Part shown: in pieces, positions 8,533 to 33,990 of the stretch
Layout of the letters: each line of letters starts with the position of its first letter
Position numbering within the stretch: position 1 is the first letter of the stretch
Origin: Microbacterium sp. BH-3-3-3
Lineage (GTDB): Bacteria; Actinomycetota; Actinomycetes; Actinomycetales; Microbacteriaceae
Direction of reading: 5' to 3'
NCBI RefSeq assembly: GCF_001792815.1
Contig: NZ_CP017674.1
Location: 3,410,001 to 3,474,000 of the forward strand
DNA: 64,000 nucleotides
The notes under the pieces: generated by a model
What the model saw: the letters and a program-made list of their open reading frames with translations, nothing else
The model's database searches: none
Told to the model about the DNA's origin: nothing
Translations under genes and position numbers: made by a program

Positions 8533-9858
8533 TCAGCCCGCCTCGCGGTACTCCGTCGGCAGGGCGGGCTCCGACCCGCTGAGTGCGAGCGCCCGCACCG
8601 GCAACTCCTGCCGCACGCGGGCGTGGTGCGCGCGTGCGGCCTCGACACCCGCGTGGCCGAGGATCGCGGCATCCGCCTCGCCGTCGACCATGAGCGTGGC
8701 CTGGAGGGGACGGGCATCGGGATGCTCGGCGGCGGTGGACAGTTCCTCGAACCCGTCGCTGACCATGATGAGCTCCGAGGTGGCGGTCCCCCCATCGAGG
8801 GTGCGGAACGCCGCCTTGCGGCCCCCGTGCGAGGCCTTCTGCGCCGATGCCTTCGCGACACCCACCCATGAGCCGTCGGCGGATTCGCGCGCGACGAGCT
8901 TGAACACCAGACCCGCGGTCGGAACGCCGGAGCCGGTCGCGACCGACGTGCCGACGCCGTATGAGTCGACCGGAGAGGCCGCGAGCGCGGCGAGCGCGTA
9001 CTCGTCGAGGTCGCTCGTGACGGTGATGCGCGTGCCCGTGGCGCCGAGCTCGTCGAGCAGCGCCCGCACCTCGCCCGCGACGATCGGCAGGTCGCCCGAG
9101 TCGATGCGCACACCGCCGAGCTGCGGACCGGCGACGCGCACGGCAGTTCGCACGCCCTCGGCGATGTCGTAGGTGTCGACGAGCAGGGTGGTCCCGCTGC
9201 CCAGCGCGTCGACCTGCGAACGGAAGGCGTCTTCTTCGCTGTCGTGCAGCAGGGTCCACGCGTGGGCGGCGGTGCCCATCGTCGGCACGCCCCAGCGGCG
9301 CCCCGCCTCGAGATTGCTGGTGGCCGAGAATCCGACGATGTAGGCGGCACGCGCGGCGGCGACCGCTGCCTCTTCGCTCGCGCGACGCGAGCCCATCTCG
9401 GCGAGCGGTCGGTCGCCGGCGGCGATACTCATGCGTGCTGCCGCCGTGGCGACGGCGGAGTCGTAGTTCAGGATGCTGAGCGCGAGCGTCTCGAGCAGCA
9501 CCGCCTCGGCGAAGGTTCCCTCCACGGTCAGCAGGGGGGAGCCGGGGAAGTACAGCTCACCCTCGCGGTAGCCGGTCACCGATCCCGTGAAGCGGTAATC
9601 GGCCAGGAAGTCGAGGGTCGTGGCATCCACCACTCTCGCGTCCCGCAGGTAGCGCAGTTCGTCGTCGCCGAAGCGGAAGTCGCGGATCGCCTCGAGCAGC
9701 CGACCGGTGCCCGCGACGACACCGAAGCGGCGTCCGCCCGAGAGGCGCCGCCCGAACACCTCGAACACGCAGCGTCGCGAGGCCGTGCCGTCGCGGAGGG
9801 CCGCGTCGAGCATGGTCAGTTCGTAGCGGTCGGTGTGCAGGGCGGTGCTGCGGCTCAT
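8533..9858 (-). CDS. pncB: Nicotinate phosphoribosyltransferase
   Basis: Converts nicotinate and PRPP to nicotinate mononucleotide in the NAD salvage (Preiss-Handler) pathway, in the cytoplasm. The 441-residue protein starts DRYELTMLDAALRDG, the family's N-terminal signature, and has EMGSRRASEEAAV, GFSATSNLEAG and MGTAAHAWTLLH, the expected active-site and phosphate-binding stretches, and later VDTYDIAEG and RIDSGDLPI. The ATG has TAGGCT 6 nt upstream and no ribosome site. Between its stop and 8396 a ~130-nt minus-strand reading frame remains that is not part of this protein. Confidence 0.9.
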   Translation of the reverse strand: MSRSTALHTDRYELTMLDAALRDGTASRRCVFEVFGRRLSGGRRFGVVAGTGRLLEAIRDFRFGDDELRYLRDARVVDATTLDFLADYRFTGSVTGYREGELYFPGSPLLTVEGTFAEAVLLETLALSILNYDSAVATAAARMSIAAGDRPLAEMGSRRASEEAAVAAARAAYIVGFSATSNLEAGRRWGVPTMGTAAHAWTLLHDSEEDAFRSQVDALGSGTTLLVDTYDIAEGVRTAVRVAGPQLGGVRIDSGDLPIVAGEVRALLDELGATGTRITVTSDLDEYALAALAASPVDSYGVGTSVATGSGVPTAGLVFKLVARESADGSWVGVAKASAQKASHGGRKAAFRTLDGGTATSELIMVSDGFEELSTAAEHPDARPLQATLMVDGEADAAILGHAGVEAARAHHARVRQELPVRALALSGSEPALPTEYREAG

Positions 9859-9864
9859 CGCGCC

Positions 9865-9870
9865 AGCCTA
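9865..9870 (-). promoter_or_regulatory. pncB -10 box
   Basis: TAGGCT on the minus strand, 6 nt before the pncB ATG. Confidence 0.6.
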
Positions 9871-9887
9871 TTCCGGCGTCGTGGGCA

Positions 9888-9905
9888 GCTCGGGAGTTTG
9901 TGCGC
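9888..9905 (+). repeat. Degenerate half of the interspersed inverted-repeat element
   Basis: The sequence GCTCGGGAGTTTGTGCGC resembles the left arm of the copy at 16983 (shared GAGTTT and GTGCGCG). The matching right arm is not found, so it is probably a decayed copy. Confidence 0.4.
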
Positions 9906-9926
9906 GTATTGGTACGGCCTTGCGCT

Positions 9927-10012
9927 GTGCCAAATTCCTGAGTTCTGCTCCCGCGAACACCCCTGAGGGCTGGATCGGCTTCGGCGCGCGCAAGTTCTCA
10001 GGAGTTCGGCAC
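9927..10012. repeat. Interspersed inverted-repeat element, copy A
   Basis: An 86-nt imperfect palindrome. The left arm GTGCCAAATTCCTGAGTT and the right arm AACTCC-type complement (read as CTCAGGAGTTCGGCAC) are inverted copies of each other, separated by a ~40-nt GC-rich centre. Copies B and C share the arms and the arm-to-arm distance. Confidence 0.75.
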
Positions 10013-10077
10013 GCGCCGCCGCCGGCGCCCTGCGACCTGCGCGCGGGCGGTCTCCGCGCGTGACGCGGCTGCCGGCC

Positions 10078-10163
10078 GTGCCGAACTCCTGACTTTTGCG
10101 TTCGCTGACGGCCCTGGGCGCCCTCCGAGGCCGCAGCGCGCCCGAAACTCAGGAGTTTGGCAC
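10078..10163. repeat. Interspersed inverted-repeat element, copy B
   Basis: 86 nt, exactly the length of copy A. Left arm GTGCCGAACTCCTGACTTTT, right arm AACTCAGGAGTTTGGCAC. The two copies lie 65 nt apart in the same intergenic region. Confidence 0.75.
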
Positions 10164-10240
10164 ACGCCCCGCCCCGCCCCGCACCGCCCCGCCCCGCCCG
10201 GCCCCCGAGCCCCGCACCGCCCCCGCGCCCCCGCCGCAGG
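10164..10240. repeat. C-rich simple-sequence tract
   Basis: Repeats of CCCCG and CCCCGCA units with almost no A or T, immediately upstream of the murI promoter. Such a tract is prone to length variation. Confidence 0.6.
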
Positions 10241-10286
10241 CGTGCGGCCCCCGCGCCCCGCTCCGATCCGTGTCGGCCCCGCCCGG

Positions 10287-10292
10287 TAGGCT
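10287..10292 (+). promoter_or_regulatory. murI -10 box
   Basis: TAGGCT, 8 nt before the ATG at 10301; leaderless arrangement. Confidence 0.6.
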
Positions 10293-10300
10293 GGGCACCT

Positions 10301-11155
10301 ATGGACAACGCGCCGATCGGGATCTTCGACTCGGGAGTCGGCGGTCTCACCGTCGCCCGGGCCGTGTCGGCGCAGCTGCCGCGCGAGTCGATCCTCTACA
10401 TCGGCGACACCGCCCGCTCTCCCTACGGCCCGAAGCCCATCGCCGACGTGCGCAAATACGCGCTCGAGGTGCTCGACACCCTCGTCGAGCAGGGCGTGAA
10501 GATGCTCGTCATCGCCTGCAACACCGCGTCGGCGGCGATGCTCCGCGACGCGCGCGAGCGCTATGACGTGCCCGTGGTCGAGGTGATCGGCCCCGCCGTG
10601 CGCACCGCCATGTCGACGACCCGCAACGGTCGCATCGGCGTGATCGGCACGGCCGGGACGATCGGCTCGCGGGCGTACCAGGACATGCTCGAGGTCAACG
10701 AGAACCTCACGGTGTTCGCCGAGGCGTGCCCGCGATTCGTCGAGTTCGTCGAGGCCGGCGTCACCGACTCGCCCGAGGTGCTCGCCACCGCCGAGCAGTA
10801 CCTCGCGCCGCTGCGGCACGCCGGGGTCGACACGCTCGTGCTCGGCTGCACGCACTACCCGTTCCTCGAGGGCGCCATCAGCTACGTGATGGGTCCCGAG
10901 GTCAGCCTGGTGTCGAGCGACAGCGAGACGGCGAAAGACGTCTATCGCCAGCTCGTCTCACGCGACCTCCTGGCGAGCCCGGATGCCGTTCCGACGCACC
11001 GCTACGAAGCCACCGGGTCGTCGGCCGACGACTTCCTGCGCCTGGCGCACCGCCTCATGGGCCGCGAGGTGCGCGAGGTGCAGCTCGTGCAGACCGGCGC
11101 CATCGACCTGCCGCGCCGAGGCACGGCATCCCTTTCGTCCGAGGAGGACACATGA
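10301..11155 (+). CDS. murI: Glutamate racemase
   Basis: Interconverts L- and D-glutamate for peptidoglycan synthesis. The 284-residue protein has [12 protein letters not shown] at the N-terminus, the first catalytic cysteine at residue 73 in IACNTASA and the second at residue 183 in LGCTHYPF. The start is ATG 10301, because TAGGCT lies just upstream and an earlier in-frame ATG would add a C-rich-tract-encoded Pro/Arg tail. The stop overlaps the rph start in ATGA, so the two are translationally coupled, and the cluster continues with rph, the XTP pyrophosphatase gene and a glycosyltransferase. Confidence 0.92.
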
Positions 11156-11877
11156 CCCGTAAAGACGGCCGCACCGCCGATCAGCTCCGCCCCGTCACCA
11201 TCGAACGCGGCTGGTCGGCACACGCCGAGGGTTCGGCCCTCGTCACCTTCGGCGGCACCAAGGTGCTGTGCACGGCGTCGTTCACCAACGGCGTTCCCCG
11301 CTGGCTCACCGGCAAGGGCAAGGGGTGGGTCACGGCCGAGTACGCCATGCTGCCGCGCGCGACGAACAGCCGCAACGACCGCGAGAGCATCAAGGGCAAG
11401 GTCGGCGGCCGCACCCACGAGATCTCGCGTTTGATCGGCCGGGCGCTGCGCGCCGTCGTCGACACCAAGGCTCTGGGTGAGAACACGATCGTCATCGACT
11501 GCGACGTGCTGCAGGCCGACGGCGGCACCCGCACCGCGGCCATCACGGGCGCGTACGTCGCCCTGGCGGATGCCATCGCCTGGGGCCGCGAGAAGAAGTT
11601 CATCGCGCAGCGCTCCGAGGTCCTGCGCGACTCGGTCGCGGCGGTATCGGTCGGCATCGTCGACGGCGAACCGCTGCTCGACCTGGCCTACGTCGAAGAC
11701 GTGCGCGCCGAGACCGACATGAACGTCGTCGTCACCGGTCGCGGTCTGTTCGTCGAGGTGCAGGGCACCGCCGAGGGAGCTCCGTTCGACAAGGCTGAGC
11801 TCGACCGCCTGCTCGAGCTGGGCGTGAACGGCTGCGCCGAGCTGCGCGGCATCCAGATCGCGACGCTCGAAGGCTGA
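11152..11877 (+). CDS. rph: Ribonuclease PH
   Basis: Phosphorolytic 3'-5' exoribonuclease that trims tRNA 3' ends. At 241 residues it is of normal length and contains the family hallmarks: RPVTIERGW at the start, [39 protein letters not shown], and [11 protein letters not shown] near the end. GAGGAGG lies just before the ATG, which overlaps the murI stop by 4 nt. This murI-rph-rdgB order is common in actinobacteria. Confidence 0.93.
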
Positions 11878-11879
11878 CC

Positions 11880-12476
11880 ATGCCGCGCATCGTGCTGGCC
11901 ACGCACAACCCGCATAAGGTCGAGGAGTTCCAGGCGATCGTCGCCGAGGTGCGCCCCGATCTCGACGTCGTCGCCTACGACGGTCCCGAACCGGTCGAGG
12001 ACGGCGTCACGTTCGCGGCGAACGCGCTGATCAAGGCCCGCGCGGCCGCGGCCTACACGGGGCTGCCCGCGCTGGCCGACGATTCCGGGATCGCCGTCGA
12101 CGTGCTGGGCGGGTCGCCGGGGGTGTTCTCGGCCTACTGGGCGGGGCACAAGAAAGACTCCACGGCCAACCTCGAGCTGTTGCTCGATCAGTTGTCCGAC
12201 GTCGCCGATCCGCACCGCACGGCGCAGTTCGTGTCGGTGATCGCGCTCGTGCGCTCCGACGGCACCGAAGAGACGATCGAGGGACGCTGGCCGGGCCGCC
12301 TGGCGATGCAGCCGGCCGGACCGGGTGGGTTCGGGTACGACCCGATCTTCGTGCCCGACGGCCAGCCCGCCGATGCCGAGCGGACGGTCGGCGAGTGGAG
12401 CGCGGCCGAGAAGAACGCGTCATCGCACAGGTCCCGCGCCTTCGTCGCCCTCGCGCCGCTGCTCGAGTCCCTCTGA
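11880..12476 (+). CDS. rdgB: XTP/dITP pyrophosphatase (Ham1/RdgB family)
   Basis: Hydrolyses non-canonical purine triphosphates (XTP, dITP) to monophosphates, keeping them out of DNA. 198 residues, with the Ham1 signatures THNPHKVEEF at the N-terminus, FAANALIKA, LADDSGIAVDVLGG-type active-site residues and GPGGFGYDPIF. It starts 2 nt after the rph stop, so it is in the same operon. Confidence 0.92.
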   Translation: MPRIVLATHNPHKVEEFQAIVAEVRPDLDVVAYDGPEPVEDGVTFAANALIKARAAAAYTGLPALADDSGIAVDVLGGSPGVFSAYWAGHKKDSTANLELLLDQLSDVADPHRTAQFVSVIALVRSDGTEETIEGRWPGRLAMQPAGPGGFGYDPIFVPDGQPADAERTVGEWSAAEKNASSHRSRAFVALAPLLESL

Positions 12477-12492
12477 GCGTGGAGGCGGACCG

Positions 12493-13311
12493 ATGAGTCC
12501 TCTTCCGTCGGTGTCGATCATCGTCCCCGCCTACAACGAAGAGGCGGTCATCGAGCAGTGCCTGAACGCCATCGTGCGTCAGACGCTCCCCGCCGCCGAG
12601 GTGCTCGTCGTCGACAACCGCTCGACCGACGGCACGCGCGCGGTGGTCGAGCGCGTGCGCGCGCGGCATCCCGACGCCGGCATCCGTCTGCTGCGCCAGG
12701 ACGACCGTCAGGGCCTGGTGCCCACCCGCAATCTGGGGATGGATGCCGCCACCGGCGACGTGCTCGCGCGGATCGACGCCGACACCGCCCTGAAACCCGA
12801 ATGGGTGGCGCGGGTCTCGCACATCTTCGCGTCGACAGACGTGGATGCCGCGTCGGGACCCGTCGAGTACTACGACCTGCCTCTGCGTGCGGTCGGACAC
12901 CAGATCGACGATGCCTTCCGGCGCCTGCAGGTGAAGCTCGCCGGCGACTTCGTGTTCCTGTTCGGCAGCAACATGGCCGTGCGGCGGGAGGCGTGGCACG
13001 ACGTGCGGGAGTTCCTGTGCGACGACGAGGCCGATGTGATGCACGAAGACCTCGACATCGCCATCCACCTCGCCCTCGGGGGGCGTCGGATCGGCTACTT
13101 CTCGCGGATGGTCGCGGGCATCGGCGCGCGGCGCCTCGACGACCGCCCTCGGGACTTCCGGCGTTACATCGACCGTTTCGAGAACACGTACGCCGCGCAC
13201 GGCATCCGCGACGTGCGACTCCGGGCTCCGATGGCGGTGTTCCTCGGCGTGTACCCGGCGCTGCACGCGCATCGGCGGATCCAGGCGCAGCTGAACGCAC
13301 GTCGGCGCTGA
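12493..13311 (+). CDS. Glycosyltransferase family 2 protein
   Basis: A 272-residue GT-A fold transferase, soluble or peripheral, with no obvious membrane anchor. Motifs: SIIVPAYNEEAVIEQCL for nucleotide-sugar binding, DNRSTDGT, IDADTAL (the DxD metal site) and MHEDLDIAIHL (the ED acceptor/catalytic pair). The ATG is preceded by GGAGG 7-8 nt away and lies 16 nt after rdgB, so it belongs to the murI operon. Its sugar donor and acceptor are not readable; a cell-surface glycan role is likely from the family. Confidence 0.8.
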   Translation: MSPLPSVSIIVPAYNEEAVIEQCLNAIVRQTLPAAEVLVVDNRSTDGTRAVVERVRARHPDAGIRLLRQDDRQGLVPTRNLGMDAATGDVLARIDADTALKPEWVARVSHIFASTDVDAASGPVEYYDLPLRAVGHQIDDAFRRLQVKLAGDFVFLFGSNMAVRREAWHDVREFLCDDEADVMHEDLDIAIHLALGGRRIGYFSRMVAGIGARRLDDRPRDFRRYIDRFENTYAAHGIRDVRLRAPMAVFLGVYPALHAHRRIQAQLNARRR

Positions 13312-13437
13312 CCTACAGCGCGGTCGGGCGACCGGGTCGAGCCGGGGCAGCCCAGTCGGGTCCCGCGGGGGAGCCCACCGACACCGGTTCTCATTCCCGA
13401 CTACCGCGATATCACGCGGCGCCCGCGGTGCGCGGCC

Positions 13438-13443
13438 TAGCCT
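13438..13443 (+). promoter_or_regulatory. -10 box of CDF transporter gene
   Basis: TAGCCT, 6 nt before the ATG at 13450; leaderless arrangement. Confidence 0.6.
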
Positions 13444-13449
13444 GAAGTC

Positions 13450-14367
13450 ATGCACGATCACGCGCCTGCCGGCGGCATCCGCGATGCCGGCAACAGACGT
13501 CTGCTCACCATCGCTCTCACCCTGACCGCATCGGTCATGGTCGTGCAGATCGTGGGCGCGATCCTGTCGGGCTCGCTCGCCCTGCTGGCCGACGCGGCGC
13601 ACATGTTCACCGACGCGGCCGCGCTCGTGGTGGCGCTGATCGCCACGGCGATCGCCGCCCGCCCGGCCGATGATCGCCGCACGTTCGGATACCAGCGTGC
13701 CGAAGTGCTCGGCGCGCTCGCGAACGGCGTCATCCTCATCGCGCTGTGCGCCTGGGTGGGCGTCGAGGCCGTGCAGCGGCTGCTCGCCCCGGCCGACGCC
13801 GAGGTGCAGGGCGGGCTCATGCTCGTCGTCGCGACGGTCGGCATGATCGCCAACGCCGTGTCGATGTGGGTACTCGGTCGCGCGCAGAAGCGCAGCATCA
13901 ACGTGCGCGGCGCGTATCTCGAGGTGCTGGGCGACCTGGTCGGGTCGATCGCGGTCATCATCGCGGCGATCGTGATCGTGACGACCGGATTCGCGCAGGC
14001 GGATGCCATCGCCTCACTGCTCATCGCGGTGCTCATCGTGCCGCGTGCCATCGGCCTGCTGCGCGAGGTCGTCGTCGTGCTCACCGAGTCGGCGCCCGTC
14101 GGCGTGCACGTGGCCGAGATCCGGCAGCACCTGCGCGAGGCCGACGGGGTGGTCGACGTGCACGACGTGCACGTCTGGCAGCTCACGCGGGGCGCGCCGG
14201 TGTTCAGCGCGCACGTGATCGTCGACGACGCGGCGCTGTCGGACGGTCGCGCCGCCGCGATCCTCGCGACGCTGCAGGGCTGCCTCGCCGAGCACTTCGA
14301 CGTGGAGCACTCGACCTTCCAGCTCGAGCCCGCGGGGCACGTCGAGCACGACTCGCGGCACGCGTAG
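13450..14367 (+). CDS. Cation diffusion facilitator (CzcD/ZntA-like metal/H+ antiporter)
   Basis: A 305-residue inner membrane protein that exports divalent metal ions such as zinc. Six transmembrane helices are visible. Helix 2 carries the metal site Asp48, His51 and Asp55 (DAAHMFTD); helix 5 carries the second pair in EVLGDLVGSI. The cytoplasmic C-terminal domain includes GVVDVHDVHVWQL, the conserved dimerisation fold. The N-terminus MHDHAPAGG has two histidines. It has its own leaderless promoter. The metal is inferred from the family. Confidence 0.85.
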   Translation: MHDHAPAGGIRDAGNRRLLTIALTLTASVMVVQIVGAILSGSLALLADAAHMFTDAAALVVALIATAIAARPADDRRTFGYQRAEVLGALANGVILIALCAWVGVEAVQRLLAPADAEVQGGLMLVVATVGMIANAVSMWVLGRAQKRSINVRGAYLEVLGDLVGSIAVIIAAIVIVTTGFAQADAIASLLIAVLIVPRAIGLLREVVVVLTESAPVGVHVAEIRQHLREADGVVDVHDVHVWQLTRGAPVFSAHVIVDDAALSDGRAAAILATLQGCLAEHFDVEHSTFQLEPAGHVEHDSRHA

Positions 14368-14446
14368 CGCCGGGGATTCCGCCGGGCTCGGTCCGGGCGG
14401 GCGAGGGCGTCGACACGCCCGGGCATCCCGCTCAGCCAGCCCGCGC

Positions 14447-16942
14447 TCAGACCTCCCGCACCACCTCGCCCGGATCCTTGTCGGGCCGCAGGCCCCGCCA
14501 GCGTGCCTGGCGCAGGATGCCGCCGGGGGTGAACTCCGCGAACTCCACCTCGGCGACGAGTTCGGGCCGCACCCACAGCGCGTCGCGGGCATCGGCGGCG
14601 GGCACCCCCACGAACGGGTCGGTGTCGCTTCCCAGCGCGGCGAGCATCTCGCCGAGTCTGGCCAAGGTCTGGTCACCGAAACCCGAGCCGACGCGGCCGG
14701 CGTACTGCAGGCCGTCCGGTCCGGGGACACCGACCAGGAGCGACCCGATCGTGCCCGCGCGGTTGCCCTTGCCCGGGCGGACGCCGCCGATCACGACCTC
14801 CTGCGTACGCGAGTGCTTCACCTTGAGCCACTGTTCCGAACGCTCGCCGCGGCGGTATACCGAACCGGGGTCCTTGACCACGACGCCCTCGAGCCCGAAC
14901 CGGCCGCTCGTCGCGACGGCGGCGTCGACGTCGTCGAACACGGGCGGCACGACGACGGGGGCCCCGGCATCCTGCGCCAGTGCCTCCAGGATGCCGCGCC
15001 GCTCGGTCAGCGGCAGGGCGGCGACGTCGCGCTCGCCCACCGAAAGTACGTCGAACAGGTACAGCTGCACCGGTGTGCGCCGGGCTTCGCGCTCGATCTC
15101 GCGGGGCTGCGCGAGGTTCATCCGTCTTTGCAGCAGGGGGAAGCTCGGGCGTCCCTGCGCGTCGAGCGCGACGATCTCGCCGTCGACGACCGCGGGCTCC
15201 GGGCCGAGCCCGAGGTCGACGGTCGTGAGTTCGGGGTAGGCGGCGGTGAGGTCGTTGCCGTTGCGCGATCGAAGGCGCAGCCGCTCGCCGTCCCAGAGGC
15301 CGATTCCGCGGATGCCGTCCCACTTCATCTCGACCCACGGCTCGCCCCAGCGGTCGGCGGCGGCCCGGGCGATCCCGGCGGTGGCGGCGGTGGACAGCAT
15401 GGGGCGCAGCTGCGCGGGACTCGGGGGAGCCGGCGGCGTCGAGGTGCCGGGCGCCGGCTCGGGCGCGGGCTCCGGCTCGGGCGCCTCGTCGCTCTCCGTC
15501 GCAGTCACCGTCACCGCGACCCGATCCGCGCGGCCGTGATCGAGGGCCACCACCGGGTCGCCATCACTCTGCGGCCGACCCTCGGCATCCGTCTTCATCC
15601 GGTGCAGCAGCCACTGCGACTTCTCGCCCGCGCCCTCGGTGCGGATGAGGGCCAGACGCACTCGGCCGAGCGGCCCGTCGGGCCCGCCCTCGAGGGTGGC
15701 GATGACCTCGTCGTCGCGCCATTTCTCGAGCTCGTAGGTGCCCGTGTCCCACACCGTCATGATGCCGGCGCCGTACTCGCCGCGGGGGATCTCGCCGGCG
15801 AAGTCGAGGTACTGCATGGGGTGGTCTTCGGTCATGACCGCGAGGCTGTTCTTCGCCGTCGTCGGGGGGACTCCCTTCGGGACGGCCCAGCTGACCAGCA
15901 CCCCATCGTGTTCGAGTCGTACGTCCCAGTGCAGGCGGGTGGCGTGGTGCTCTTGGATGACGAAGCGGGGAAGACCGTCGGGTGCGGCGTCGGCGTGCGG
16001 GGCATCGGGCACGGGCTCGGGGGTCGCACCCGCGGTGCGCTTGGAGATGTACGCACGAAGGGGTCCCGCGTCGCGCTCGACCGGCGCGAGCGGATCGCCG
16101 GGGCGATCCAGCACCTCGGTGAACAGCAGGTGACGTAGGCCCGGGTCGTCGAGCTCCTCCCACGTGCGCGGGGCGGCGACGGTGGGGTGCGATCGTCCCC
16201 GCAGCGAGTACGGCGCGATCGTGGTCTTCGAGCCGTTGTTCTGGCTCCAGTCGATGAAGACCTTGCCGGGGCGCGCGGACTTCGACATCTGGCTGACCAC
16301 CAGGTCGGGGTGGTCGGCTTCGATCGCCCGGGCGAGTTCTTTCGCGATCGCGCTGGCGGCATCACTCGATTGGCGGCCGTCGAGGTGCGCGTAGAGGTGG
16401 ATGCCCTTGCTTCCGCTCGTCACCGGCAGGGGGTCGAGACCGATGTCCTGCAGGATGACGCGTGCCCACCGGGCCACCTCGGCGCACTCGGCCAGGCCGA
16501 CGCCGGGTCCGGGGTCGAGGTCGAGCACCAATCGGTCGGGGTGGAGCCTCTCGCCGTCGGCAGAGAACCGCCACTGGGGCACGTGCAGCTCGAGGCTCGC
16601 GACCTGCGCCAGGTAGACGACGGTGGGCAGATCGTCGACGAGGGGGTAGTCCTTGGCGCCCGAGGAGTGGTCGATCGGCAGGCGCCGCACCCAGGCCGGC
16701 GCTCCGGGTTCGAGGGCCTTGGCGAAGAAGGGCTCGCCCGGGTCGGCGTCGGTGCCGACCCCGTCGGGCCAGCGCTTGCGCGTGACAGGACGATCTCGCA
16801 CGTGGGGGAGCAGGCGCGGGGCGATGCGGGAGTAGTAGTCGATCACCTCGCCCTTGGTGGTCCCGGTCTCGGGGTACAGCACCTTGTCGAGGTTCGACAG
16901 ACGCAGGCGGCGTCCGCCGATGCGCACCGTCTGCTCCGTCAT
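14447..16942 (-). CDS. ligD: ATP-dependent DNA ligase/polymerase LigD (NHEJ)
   Basis: Multifunctional non-homologous end-joining enzyme of 831 residues. The order is polymerase/primase (about 1-290, RLSNLDKVLYPETG to LDLDPGPG), 3'-phosphoesterase (about 320-480, EHHATRLHWDVRLEHDG with catalytic His and Asp) and ATP-dependent ligase (about 535-830, with the adenylated lysine in EMKWDGIRG). This Pol-PE-Lig order matches mycobacterial LigD. ATG 16942 is chosen because TACGCT lies 6 nt upstream and because residues before it are out of family. It is divergent from ku across a region holding a repeat element. Confidence 0.92.
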   Translation of the reverse strand: MTEQTVRIGGRRLRLSNLDKVLYPETGTTKGEVIDYYSRIAPRLLPHVRDRPVTRKRWPDGVGTDADPGEPFFAKALEPGAPAWVRRLPIDHSSGAKDYPLVDDLPTVVYLAQVASLELHVPQWRFSADGERLHPDRLVLDLDPGPGVGLAECAEVARWARVILQDIGLDPLPVTSGSKGIHLYAHLDGRQSSDAASAIAKELARAIEADHPDLVVSQMSKSARPGKVFIDWSQNNGSKTTIAPYSLRGRSHPTVAAPRTWEELDDPGLRHLLFTEVLDRPGDPLAPVERDAGPLRAYISKRTAGATPEPVPDAPHADAAPDGLPRFVIQEHHATRLHWDVRLEHDGVLVSWAVPKGVPPTTAKNSLAVMTEDHPMQYLDFAGEIPRGEYGAGIMTVWDTGTYELEKWRDDEVIATLEGGPDGPLGRVRLALIRTEGAGEKSQWLLHRMKTDAEGRPQSDGDPVVALDHGRADRVAVTVTATESDEAPEPEPAPEPAPGTSTPPAPPSPAQLRPMLSTAATAGIARAAADRWGEPWVEMKWDGIRGIGLWDGERLRLRSRNGNDLTAAYPELTTVDLGLGPEPAVVDGEIVALDAQGRPSFPLLQRRMNLAQPREIEREARRTPVQLYLFDVLSVGERDVAALPLTERRGILEALAQDAGAPVVVPPVFDDVDAAVATSGRFGLEGVVVKDPGSVYRRGERSEQWLKVKHSRTQEVVIGGVRPGKGNRAGTIGSLLVGVPGPDGLQYAGRVGSGFGDQTLARLGEMLAALGSDTDPFVGVPAADARDALWVRPELVAEVEFAEFTPGGILRQARWRGLRPDKDPGEVVREV

Positions 16943-16948
16943 CGCCCC

Positions 16949-16954
16949 AGCGTA
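16949..16954 (-). promoter_or_regulatory. ligD -10 box
   Basis: TACGCT on the minus strand, 6 nt before the ligD ATG. Confidence 0.55.
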
Positions 16955-16982
16955 GAGCGGGGGCGATGACCGGGGTACCGCG

Positions 16983-17067
16983 GAGCCGAACTCCTGAGTT
17001 TCGTGCGCGAACCGGCCGGTGTGCCCACGCTCTACGCTTCGCGGCGAGTTTCTCAGGAGTTTCGCCC
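16983..17067. repeat. Interspersed inverted-repeat element, copy C
   Basis: 85 nt between the ligD and ku promoters. Left arm GAGCCGAACTCCTGAGTTT, right arm CTCAGGAGTTTCGCCC. It shares with copy A the inner GCGAAC near the left arm and a CTTCG motif near the right arm. Confidence 0.7.
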
Positions 17068-17156
17068 GGGATCGCGGCGGGAACCGACCGCGACGCCGAG
17101 TCCCTCGCGCGGCAACCCCCTCGGCATCCGCCCCTCTTTCGGTGTTCACTGTTCCC

Positions 17157-18017
17157 ATGCGATCGATCTGGAAGGGCGCCCTGACCTTCGGCCTCGTCAA
17201 CGTGCCCGTGAAGGTGTACTCGGCCACCGAAGACCACGACGTCTCTCTGCACCAGGTGCACAACAAGGACGGCGGGCGCATCCGGTACCAGCGCATTTGC
17301 GAGGTCGACGGCGAGGTGGTGCCCTACGCCGACATCGATCGCGCGTACGACGACGGCGAGCAGACGGTCGTGCTGACCAAAGACGACCTCGCGTCGCTGC
17401 CGAGCGAACGCAGTCGCGAGATCGAGGTGGTCGAGTTCGTTCCCAGCGATCAGGTCGATCTGCTGACCCTCGACAAGGCGTACTACCTCGAGCCCGACTC
17501 CTCGTCGCCGAAGGCGTACGTGCTGTTGCGCAAGACGCTCGAGCAGACCGACCGCACCGCGATCGTGCGCTTCTCGCTGCGTCAGAAGACGCGGCTCGCG
17601 GCCCTGCGCGTGCGCGACGACGTGCTCGTGCTGCAGACGCTGCTCTGGGCCGACGAGGTGCGTGAGGCGGCGTTCCCCGCGCTGGACGAGAGCGTGCGCA
17701 TCTCGGCGAAGGAGCTCGAGATGTCGGCCTCTCTGGTCGAGAGCTTCTCGAAGGATTTCGACCCCGAGGAGTTCACCGACGAGTACCAGGCCGAGCTGCG
17801 CACCCTGATCGACGCGAAGCTCGAGCAGGGCGACGCCATCGACACCGCGGCGACCTTCGGCGAGCAGGAGAGCGACGACGACGGCGGCGAGGTCATCGAC
17901 CTCATGGAGGCCCTGCGCGCGAGCGTCGAGCGCAGTCGCGCGGCCCGCACCGAGAAGGCCGACGACGCGCCGGCCAAGAAGGCGCCGGCGAAGAAGAAGA
18001 GCTCGAAGGCGTCCTGA
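17157..18017 (+). CDS. ku: Ku protein (NHEJ DNA end binding)
   Basis: Homodimeric ring that binds double-strand DNA ends and recruits LigD. 286 residues: MRSIWKGALTFGLVNVPV is the invariant bacterial Ku start, followed by YATEDHDV-type beta-barrel sequence and the conserved RFSLRQKTRLAALR. The C-terminus ends in a lysine-rich tail (KKAPAKKKSSKAS), seen in many actinobacterial Ku proteins and thought to help DNA threading. TTCACT lies 6 nt before the ATG, so it may also be leaderless. Its stop abuts the stop of the convergent DedA gene (TGA then TCA). Confidence 0.93.
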   Translation: MRSIWKGALTFGLVNVPVKVYSATEDHDVSLHQVHNKDGGRIRYQRICEVDGEVVPYADIDRAYDDGEQTVVLTKDDLASLPSERSREIEVVEFVPSDQVDLLTLDKAYYLEPDSSSPKAYVLLRKTLEQTDRTAIVRFSLRQKTRLAALRVRDDVLVLQTLLWADEVREAAFPALDESVRISAKELEMSASLVESFSKDFDPEEFTDEYQAELRTLIDAKLEQGDAIDTAATFGEQESDDDGGEVIDLMEALRASVERSRAARTEKADDAPAKKAPAKKKSSKAS

Positions 18018-32121: not shown

Positions 32122-32383
32122 GGCTCCCTCCCGCTTTGCGGTCAGAACGGTGGCGGGTCTGTCTGGACCTCGTGGCCGCGCGGGGAGGTCCACGCCGAGA
32201 TGGCGGGGGTGTAGGGCTCCGTCGCGCTTCGCTCGGTCAGAACGGTGGCGGGTCTGTGTCGACTTCGCGGCCGCGCGGGGCGGTTCACGCCGAGGTGGCG
32301 GGGGTGTAGGGCTCCGTCGCGCTTCGCTCGGTCAGAACGGTGGCGGGTCTGTGTCGACCTCGTGGCCGCGCGGGGAGGTCCAT
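32101..32383. repeat. 95-nt tandem repeat, three copies, across a convergent gene junction
   Basis: Copies begin at 32101, 32194 and 32289 (GCCGAG...). GTCAGAACGG recurs at 32141, 32236 and 32331, exactly 95 nt apart; copy 1 has a 2-nt deletion. Each unit joins the 3' end of the Nudix gene (ending GTAGGG) to the 3' end of the HNH gene. Only copy 1 holds the Nudix stop and only copy 3 the HNH stop in use. Confidence 0.85.
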
Positions 32384-33990
32384 CGCACATCGCCGGTGTC
32401 GGGATCGCGCGAGGGACTCCAGCGCGACTCGTGCCGCAGTCGGTGATGATGTCGGCACTCGGGTTCGAGATTGTCGGCGTCTGTCGTGCCTCCCTCGGCC
32501 CATGCCGTGAGGTGGTCGATGTCGCAGTCCCGCGCGCTGCGCGCACAGCCGGGGAATACGCACGTCGGTGAGGTGACGCCCAACCACCGGCGCAGCGCGG
32601 CCGTCACGCGATACGACGTGCGATCGAGCGCCAACGGGGCCCCGCTGAGCGGGTGCGTGAGCAGACGGGTCCAGCTCGTGGCGCCACCCGCGAGGCGACG
32701 GGCGGTGTCGAGGTCGATCGGACCGTACCCGTCGAGGGTCGCCGGTCCGTCGCCGCCGCCGAGGAGCGTCAGCGCGGGAACGGTCACGACGATGGAGCCG
32801 CGTGAGGGGGCGGGGCGCGCGCGAGCCGTGGGGGTGTGTGGGGTGGCCAGGCCGGGGGATGGGGCGGTGGCCGGTGCGGAGCCTGGGCGCGCGCCGTCGA
32901 CCGTGTCGGCTCCGTCCAGCAGGTCGGCCAGCGTGTCGGCGCGCAGCTGCGCCAGTGTCCGTTCTTCGTCGGGGGTCGCGCGCAGGTGTCGGGCGAACCG
33001 GTCTACGCGCGCCATCGCCGCGTGGGCACGATCCGCGGGCAGCAGCGCGCTCAGTGTCGCCATGCCGTCGAGTTCCGCCGTCACCCATACGCCGCGGTCG
33101 CGAGCGGCTCGCGCGTGTCGCTGCTCGAGGGAGTCGGCGTGGACGCGTTCGCGAAGCGCGCGCGCAGCCACGACGAACTTTGCGGGCGTCAAGGTGCGCG
33201 CGCGTTCCGAGGCGCCGTCGTCGAAGGCCGCCCACGTCTCGGGGCTGTCGGGCAGGCTGTCCGCGAGACGAGCGGTCTCGACGGCGTGCCGCTCCGACGT
33301 GCGCCCCTCGGCGAAGTCGTTCCAGGTGCGCGGGCAGCGTTCTTGCATGCTCTCTGCCTGCGAGCCGCGGAGGCGAACCGTCTGCTCGGAGAGGCGCAGG
33401 CGCACGGCGATCTCGGCGACGGCCGCGCGCTGAGCCAGGTCGCACCGGTCGCGCGCGATGGCCGCGGCCCCACGGCGTCGCGGGTCGCTCCCCACGCCGT
33501 CGAGCGTGGGGTCGGGGCCGACCCAGGGTTCGGGATCGATGCTCGCGCGGCTCACGAGAAGCGCGATGAGTCGGTACCCCTCGGCGGTGGCGCGGCGCTG
33601 CGTCACCGCTGCGACCTCGAGCGCGCGTAGCAGATCGTCGACGTCGGCCTCGCCGTCGAGGATCGGCGCGCTCGCGACCTCGCCAGTGTCTGCGGTGGGG
33701 GTCGAGCCGTCCTGCGATGCGCTGGTTAAGCCGTCGTGCGCGGTGGGCGCTGGGTCGTCGCCGCCGGGGTCGTCGTCAGAGTCGACGATGTCGGTCGACC
33801 TGTCTATCTCGGTCCAGGAGAACTCGCCGGAGGGAAGGCCGCCGGCATTCTCCTCACCGTCGAGGAGTCCGAGCTCTCTCGCCCAGAGCGTGTCGGCTTC
33901 GAGCTGCAGATCTCGGGCGCTCGGAGGCGGCACATCGCGCCACCATTCGACGGCCCGGCGGCTGCCGTTCACGGGGGCGGAGAGGCTCAT
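32332..33990 (-). CDS. DUF222 domain HNH endonuclease-like protein (13E12 repeat family)
   Basis: A 552-residue member of the actinobacterial DUF222/HNH family, typically present in many copies per genome. The N-terminal ~100 residues are acidic. The DUF222 helical region spans about 100-450 (TPAKFVVAARALRERVHADS). The C-terminal HNH domain holds FPGCARSARDCDIDHLTAW and ECRHHHRLRH with the Cys and His metal and catalytic residues. The biochemical role is unknown, but sequence-independent or homing-type DNA cleavage has been proposed. Leaderless-type start with TACCGT 6 nt upstream. Its 3' end has been copied into the neighbouring tandem repeat. Confidence 0.85.
   Translation of the reverse strand: MSLSAPVNGSRRAVEWWRDVPPPSARDLQLEADTLWARELGLLDGEENAGGLPSGEFSWTEIDRSTDIVDSDDDPGGDDPAPTAHDGLTSASQDGSTPTADTGEVASAPILDGEADVDDLLRALEVAAVTQRRATAEGYRLIALLVSRASIDPEPWVGPDPTLDGVGSDPRRRGAAAIARDRCDLAQRAAVAEIAVRLRLSEQTVRLRGSQAESMQERCPRTWNDFAEGRTSERHAVETARLADSLPDSPETWAAFDDGASERARTLTPAKFVVAARALRERVHADSLEQRHARAARDRGVWVTAELDGMATLSALLPADRAHAAMARVDRFARHLRATPDEERTLAQLRADTLADLLDGADTVDGARPGSAPATAPSPGLATPHTPTARARPAPSRGSIVVTVPALTLLGGGDGPATLDGYGPIDLDTARRLAGGATSWTRLLTHPLSGAPLALDRTSYRVTAALRRWLGVTSPTCVFPGCARSARDCDIDHLTAWAEGGTTDADNLEPECRHHHRLRHESRWSPSRDPDTGDVRWTSPRGHEVDTDPPPF

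Follow-up and report, generated by a model that had tools for sequence, protein, structure and literature searches.

Most short dispersed repeats of bacteria have been linked either to HUH transposases or to DDE transposons in decay. Starting from three inverted-repeat copies in a 64-kb stretch of the Microbacterium sp. BH-3-3-3 chromosome (NZ_CP017674.1, positions 3,410,001 to 3,474,000; hereafter the window), we describe a population of twin-arm elements that has a REPIN/RAYT-like organization without that family's defining enzyme. These elements are probably REPIN-like units served by a fusion of an AbiEi-type region with a homing-endonuclease-type nuclease, and the existence of a partner family for the repeat population is well supported. 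The set-up resembles that of a selfish repeat, is likely built from unrelated parts, and likely has an unstudied DNA-cutting protein as its partner. Among the open-access papers listed, we found neither a description of such repeats in Microbacterium nor a paper that combines DUF559 with "inverted repeat"; MTES_1575 is mentioned in four papers.

An arm profile resolves the three window copies into units of 87–88 bp, each with two inverted arms of ~23 bp. The original prediction, made from the letters of the window, placed these arms within 1–2 bases of our coordinates; its three copies are real, with full lengths of 88, 88, and 87 bp. The equal arm spacing and differing centers that led it to propose a structured unit also hold, and the spacer of the second copy has no similarity to that of the first. 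Pfam supports the neighbors it named, pncB/murI and ligD/ku (NAPRTase, Asp/Glu racemase, LigD, and Ku). A decayed half that it placed at 9888 finds no support: the site carries two mismatches and scores below the profile cut of 9. Across the 64-kb window, nine arm-like matches were found against 1.09 expected, a number that none of 100 shuffles reaches.

The three copies are members of a larger population that we call the A dialect, with the arm consensus CGKGCSRAACTCCTGAGWWWYCGG. In this genome, the 10-mer CTCAGGAGTT occurs in 51 exact copies, compared to one for its reversed control, and 36 of these copies form 18 exact pairs. A looser pair pattern returns 51 rows genome-wide (reversed control 0); since a perfect pair is picked up once per strand, the rows reduce to 29 distinct places, among them a doubtful one (384562) that is invisible to the arm profile. 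The REP-like population that had been predicted is present in many copies across the genome. Neither a lack of further copies nor alignment of the arms by chance alone, the outcomes named beforehand as telling against it, was found: copies are abundant and controls are about zero. A public scan of species genomes gave 82 stretches, comprising 68 from named Microbacterium, 11 from unnamed metagenome-assembled genomes (Microbacteriaceae, Actinomycetes, or Actinomycetota), and three that we set aside (Caldimicrobium, Woesearchaeota, and a contig-end Subtercola palindrome). Exact A pairs occur in 26 of 295 Microbacterium genomes, an even draw from a larger group, and the reversed control in none.

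Between unrelated loci, spacer sequence is not conserved and spacer length is. Measured from arm position 1 to arm position 1 in a scan that allowed 49–117 bp, the lengths of 144 A elements are quantized, with 113 at 75–77 bp and 31 at 86–88 bp. Many of these loci were fetched by patterns limited to about 65–98 bp; despite this, the single-arm listing and the loci fetched via their flanks reproduce the same lengths. Thinning of similar spacers leaves lengths of 75 (12 elements), 76 (56), 77 (10), 87 (14), and 88 bp (10), together with three outliers (95, 90, and 73 bp) that match the three set-aside stretches by coordinates. Two other dialects, B and E, add a rung at 65–66 bp. The 22 copies of the B dialect (ACACAACGCAGGAGATCC; 19 of 295 genomes, control 0) measure 65/66 (4), 73–77 (13), or 87/88 bp (5), and a looser B core adds one 81-bp and one 111-bp pair; E elements (ACAACTCCTGCA) measure 65–66 bp in 11 of 13 cases and 75–76 bp in 2; the S dialect measures 78–79 bp in its assigned register, or 76–77 bp if aligned on CTCC. 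Arithmetic on the A, B, and E lengths gives rungs of ~52, 62, and 74 bp from one CTCCTG core to the other, which approximates 5, 6, and 7 helical turns at 10.5 bp each, with 32, 42, or 54 bp between the arms. The geometry of double-stranded DNA is the simplest explanation of this ladder. Inside the elements, a weak central palindrome lies near CCGCGGAATTCCGCGG in the longer A class and in some 88-bp B units, and inverted-repeat matching between the A/T tracts that adjoin the arms on their inner side falls below expectation. A whole-element polarity model fitted by expectation maximization found no interior consensus beyond these tracts; a poorly built null scored as well as the data, and the model was not used.

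The enzyme that the original prediction imagined elsewhere in the genome is, as a dedicated enzyme, probable. It is not the RAYT-like transposase suggested: a search for Y1 transposases (RAYT/IS200-type, PF01797) found none in 59 genomes, this one included, and was positive in 5 of 14 control genomes. Instead, a gene of ~283 codons lies between two A elements in several genomes, and the downstream arm even provides the final codons and the stop of this gene (L051, L145, and L157). Its product gives matches to PF18741 (REase_MTES_1575) and to AbiEi domains, most of them under the curated cut-offs, and has an AbiEi-like winged helix-turn-helix, a second domain, and a predicted Vsr-like PD-(D/E)XK nuclease fold. 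It is likely a fusion of ~280 residues that joins an AbiEi-type DNA-binding region to a Vsr/homing-endonuclease nuclease domain (PF18741/DUF559 relatives); MTES_0615 of Microbacterium testaceum StLB037, a plant endophyte, is one A-type example. The acidic residues E179, E183, D210, E220, D222, D236, and D240 of the nuclease region are invariant in 56 close homologues, a pattern that suggests a working nuclease. At E 0.001 or better, 1158 relatives scored, annotated as "very-short-patch-repair endonuclease," "DUF559," or "AbiEi antitoxin domain protein."

Such genes are frequently bracketed by repeats. Inverted pairs sharing a common 9-mer stand on both sides of 17 of the first 29 nuclease genes, compared to 2 of 382 other genes, and these two are one gene of contig G016:C154 present in two loci. 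Among 67 loci (72 fetched minus 5 in which the gene was not located; 65 distinct genes), bracketing appears at 24 under a strict cut and at 34 under a relaxed one, for which the control gave 2 of 260, the same G016:C154 gene; both control sets may include the nuclease gene of L066. A nuclease gene flanked by its own repeats, a REPIN/RAYT feature, is present with a different enzyme (strict cut, 24 of 67 loci; control 2 of 382). A elements are present in each of the ten genomes that have a close A-type gene, and such a gene occurs in none of 36 chosen A-negative genomes. In this genome, two DUF559-type genes with weak PF18741 matches (L331 near 2703.8 kb and L348 near 784.4 kb) each lie between inverted pairs of their own, GAGTGTCCANGACACG and GTGTCCCACTTCGT, whose 56-bp span may represent another length class of this arrangement; L298 and L347 are bracketed at the relaxed cut, and L297 is not bracketed.

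The nuclease loci recur at particular places, where 25 (23 distinct) adjoin add and 18 adjoin a trpS-like gene, names that we read from the protein sequences. By the same kind of reading, these two main loci have neighbors that resemble add and a hydrolase in one case and trpS and a GNAT gene in the other. At one chromosomal position, the dialect varies by species, yet the pairs on the two flanks agree where both are present. The add position holds A, CGCGCTCCGG, and AACTCCTCCAATC, and the trpS position holds E, B, ACAACGTCGGCA, and ATTCAGTC; at least nine dialects are labeled. Arm dialect tracks the protein clades: when nine dialect labels are mapped onto a tree of 32 proteins, eight changes are required, the minimum possible. 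The labels came from one or both flanks and were assigned by hand, and L276 and L289 (misread in frame) were dropped from a second tree. Three genomes (G088, G175, and G250) each carry two nuclease genes with differing dialects on one or both sides. Descent alone would not alter the two flanks together, and the simplest interpretation is a process linked to the protein.

Sites away from the nuclease genes also turn over. Thirty pncB–murI loci, our own included, hold A arms, other arms, or nothing, and among alignable loci, similar turnover is seen at ligD–ku and at one convergent locus. We rejected general A-to-B switching at the same sites: outside the chosen pncB–murI region, B loci share at most one short neighbor with A loci (L107 with L076) and some 50% paralogues.

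We propose that each element acts as a paired protein-binding site in double-stranded DNA, with CTCCTG cores on about the same helix face and a freely evolving spacer. One protomer would bind each arm through its AbiEi part, and the two would meet across a bent or looped spacer, which would explain the arm phasing. The nuclease would act at this paired complex, and homing-like break-and-repair would copy or convert elements. The candidate partner gene is found mostly at fixed chromosomal places, often bracketed by one dialect; elements near 3′ ends would be tolerated, giving rise to the convergent bias described below. In its fullest form, the proposal is a RAYT-free counterpart of REPINs, in which AbiEi–homing-endonuclease fusions copy and keep phase-locked twin-arm elements through a looped double-stranded complex while dialect and enzyme co-diversify at fixed loci genus-wide; we rate that full version at slightly under an even chance.

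Several observations weigh against a dedicated nuclease partner of this kind. At 33 of the 67 loci, there is no common bracketing even at the relaxed cut. These loci come down to 65 distinct genes, since L350 and L351 are repeats of L281 and L278, and they occupy 16 chromosomal positions; 41 of the genes are found at two of these, so the Fisher p for bracketing overstates independence; per position, bracketing is found at 5 of 16 (strict) or 9 of 16 (relaxed). None of the five non-helicase members examined in this genome brackets A arms. Among this genome's matches to the A-type protein, identity peaks at about 35%, and a close A-type homologue is absent, so its A population may be orphaned; 16 of the 26 A-positive genomes, this one included, are without a close A-type gene. 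The B dialect also has lengths of 73/74 bp (4 of 22), and other dialects beside nuclease genes span 56, 68, 78–83, and 94–98 bp, in a register that is not fixed and so cannot be placed on the A/B/E ladder. In homologous copies, conservation is higher in arms (0.81) than in spacers (0.65) and flanks (0.65), a difference partly ascertained because copies were found through their arms. Mobility, as judged from sequence comparison, would rest on one dispersed pair, tandem copies, and patchy presence. The pair (L023/L036, about 1.15 Mb apart in this genome) has the whole unit in common, including 94% of the spacer, and little beyond roughly 15 bp of flank. Close relatives differ in which sites are occupied: some sites are empty, one site can carry different families, and one locus can hold either length class across homologues. 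Finally, bracketing was seen at 1 of 28 loci from other families of the order, many of the 28 being helicase fusions. That locus, L339, has a PF18741 gene with matching inverted pairs on both sides (TAGAAATATGG; cross-paired expectation 0.035 among the 28), hinting at a range that may extend beyond the genus.

Could the elements instead be RAYT-type REPINs, single-stranded hairpins moved by a Y1 (HUH) transposase? Their paired inverted arms, variable spacers of fixed length, extragenic location, several dialects, and tandem copies would all fit. The window copies also fold as hairpins better than shuffles (z −2.8 to −6.3), the spacers alone do so slightly (mean z −0.39, standard error 0.13; 12 of 99 below −2), and arm position −3 covaries within genomes (z 3.7). 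However, the spacer effect is small, positions 0–1 do not covary, and complementarity at bases 12–15, adjoining the arms, falls short of expectation (z −1.3 to −3.5). Inside the arms, complementarity of symmetric positions is at or below expectation (unshifted pairings), and an ~11-bp length ladder is not expected of a hairpin. With the enzyme missing, this explanation is largely refuted, and we give it very little credence. An RNA hairpin or riboregulator was also rejected, as interior folding is weak and an Rfam match is absent; three Rfam matches in 9500–17500 are all far below gathering scores, and none falls on an element. Scarcely more credible is a classical miniature inverted-repeat transposable element (MITE) with the arms as terminal repeats, moved in trans by a DDE transposase. 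A MITE would accommodate the inverted ends, the patchy presence at homologous loci, and the dispersed near-identical pair without common flanks. This idea, also raised by the original prediction, is already weakened, since no consistent target-site duplication was found at 20 boundary offsets and seven lengths of 2–9 bp among 141 copies of A and 22 of B; a 2-mer twelve bases outside showed the greatest excess (25 versus 14.2). Spacers are unrelated between most copies while their length is exact, and above 72% spacer identity there are only orthologous or tandem copies and the one dispersed pair, so the shared interiors of a MITE are not found. No full-length parent with A arms appeared in the loci fetched, where no search was aimed at one.

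The position of the elements relative to genes bears on a further alternative, a host cis-element in which a twin operator or roadblock ends or insulates transcription between convergent genes and the nuclease-like protein is a DNA-binding regulator only. Among 130 elements drawn from this genome and its relatives (a count that takes in orthologous copies and the doubtful place; genes called by a codon-based finder), 57 are convergent, 44 tandem, 13 divergent, 8 within a predicted open reading frame, and 8 at a locus edge. Compared to element-free gaps of 90–800 bp, convergent gaps are enriched (57/114 versus 25/189, p 6e-12) and divergent ones depleted (13/114 versus 67/189, p 2e-6). The divergent promoter setting from which the elements were first described is thus true of the three window copies and a rare case overall, and their reading as promoter elements does not stand. 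The median distance to 138 neighboring 3′ ends is 48 bp; the stop lies inside an arm in at least 10 cases, and in some cases, the arm's own TGA serves as the stop codon of the neighboring gene (distance −10). A cis-element would explain this closeness to stop codons, the convergent enrichment, and the better conservation of arms than spacers. Elements beside the nuclease gene would likewise recall AbiEi autoregulation (PMC7319586). Against it stand the patchy distribution with empty and exchanged sites and the invariant acidic residues, and we regard it as unlikely. A shared regulon was rejected, as the neighbors are mixed housekeeping genes.

Table 1. Twin-arm elements of the window and the genes around them (window coordinates; lengths in classes run from arm position 1 to arm position 1).
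Feature	Position	Strand	Details
Element 1	9926..10013	.	88 bp, class 76; between pncB (−) and murI (+); arm scores 24.8, 32.6; pattern match G000:C1:3419936-3420006
Element 1, left arm	9926..9948	+	arm profile; single weakened base (AATTCC)
Element 1, right arm	9991..10013	-	arm profile
Element 2	10077..10164	.	88 bp, class 76; pncB–murI intergenic like element 1; arm scores 28.2, 33.3
Element 2, left arm	10077..10099	+	arm profile
Element 2, right arm	10142..10164	-	arm profile
Element 3	16982..17068	.	87 bp, class 75; between ligD (−) and ku (+); arm scores 26.5, 33.0
Element 3, left arm	16982..17004	+	arm profile
Element 3, right arm	17046..17068	-	arm profile
pncB, nicotinate phosphoribosyltransferase (context gene)	8533..9858	-	PF17767
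murI, glutamate racemase (context gene)	10301..11155	+	PF01177
ligD (context gene)	14447..16942	-	PF21686, PF13298, PF01068, PF04679
ku (context gene)	17157..18017	+	PF02735

Both intergenic regions contain other conserved features. Upstream of murI (window 9859–10300, L158–L187), a TTGACA hexamer and a TAGGCT just before the gene are kept in many relatives; the gap between them is 12 bp in the element-free locus L184, and in many carriers, elements sit between the two. In the ligD–ku region (window 16943–17156, L207–L233), a conserved inverted repeat, GGATGCCGAGGGGGTTGCG ... CGCAAGGGTCTCGGCATCC, frames the region in most relatives printed, with the right half alone recognizable in the window; it is possibly an operator of the non-homologous end-joining genes. 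At the same intergenic site, eight ku loci (L208, L214, L218, L220, L223, L224, L226, and L230) hold another repeat family (CCGGTGGCTTCGACAGGCTCAGCCACC with GGTCCCTGAGCCTGTCGAAGGGACC), sometimes in several copies. Elsewhere in the window, 32139–32423 contains three tandem 95-bp direct repeats, the second and third 93% and 68% identical to the first.

If AbiEi–nuclease fusions do serve these elements, a different enzyme class gains a likely DNA partner with a readable code, the arm dialect, and a built-in ruler in steps of about one helical turn. Many unexplained genes would become testable, and the labeled dialects would offer a natural experiment in protein–DNA co-evolution. The closest known counterpart is the REPIN/RAYT system (REPtron) of Pseudomonas and enterobacteria, which likewise has short paired inverted arms, a length-conserved spacer, extragenic populations, lineage dialects, and a nuclease gene that keeps to fixed loci with its own repeats on either side. 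In P. fluorescens, the spacing within REPINs is 71 or 110 bp (PMC3116915). Unlike that system, ours has an AbiEi–Vsr/homing-endonuclease fusion in place of the Y1 HUH transposase, little sign of selection for a spacer hairpin, length steps of about one DNA turn, and an arm consensus without the GTAG tag. Compared to AbiEi antitoxins with their operators (S. agalactiae AbiE; Rv2827c), the protein is fused to a nuclease and its sites are dispersed genome-wide. It differs from Vsr and from I-Bth0305I, reportedly an EDxHD/Vsr-like homing endonuclease, in being a free-standing chromosomal gene with an AbiEi-like front end and short paired repeats, and we noticed no intron or intein. The elements resemble MITEs in being small, non-coding, intergenic, and patchy with inverted ends, and depart from them in their mostly non-homologous interiors, stepped lengths, and lack of a consistent target duplication.

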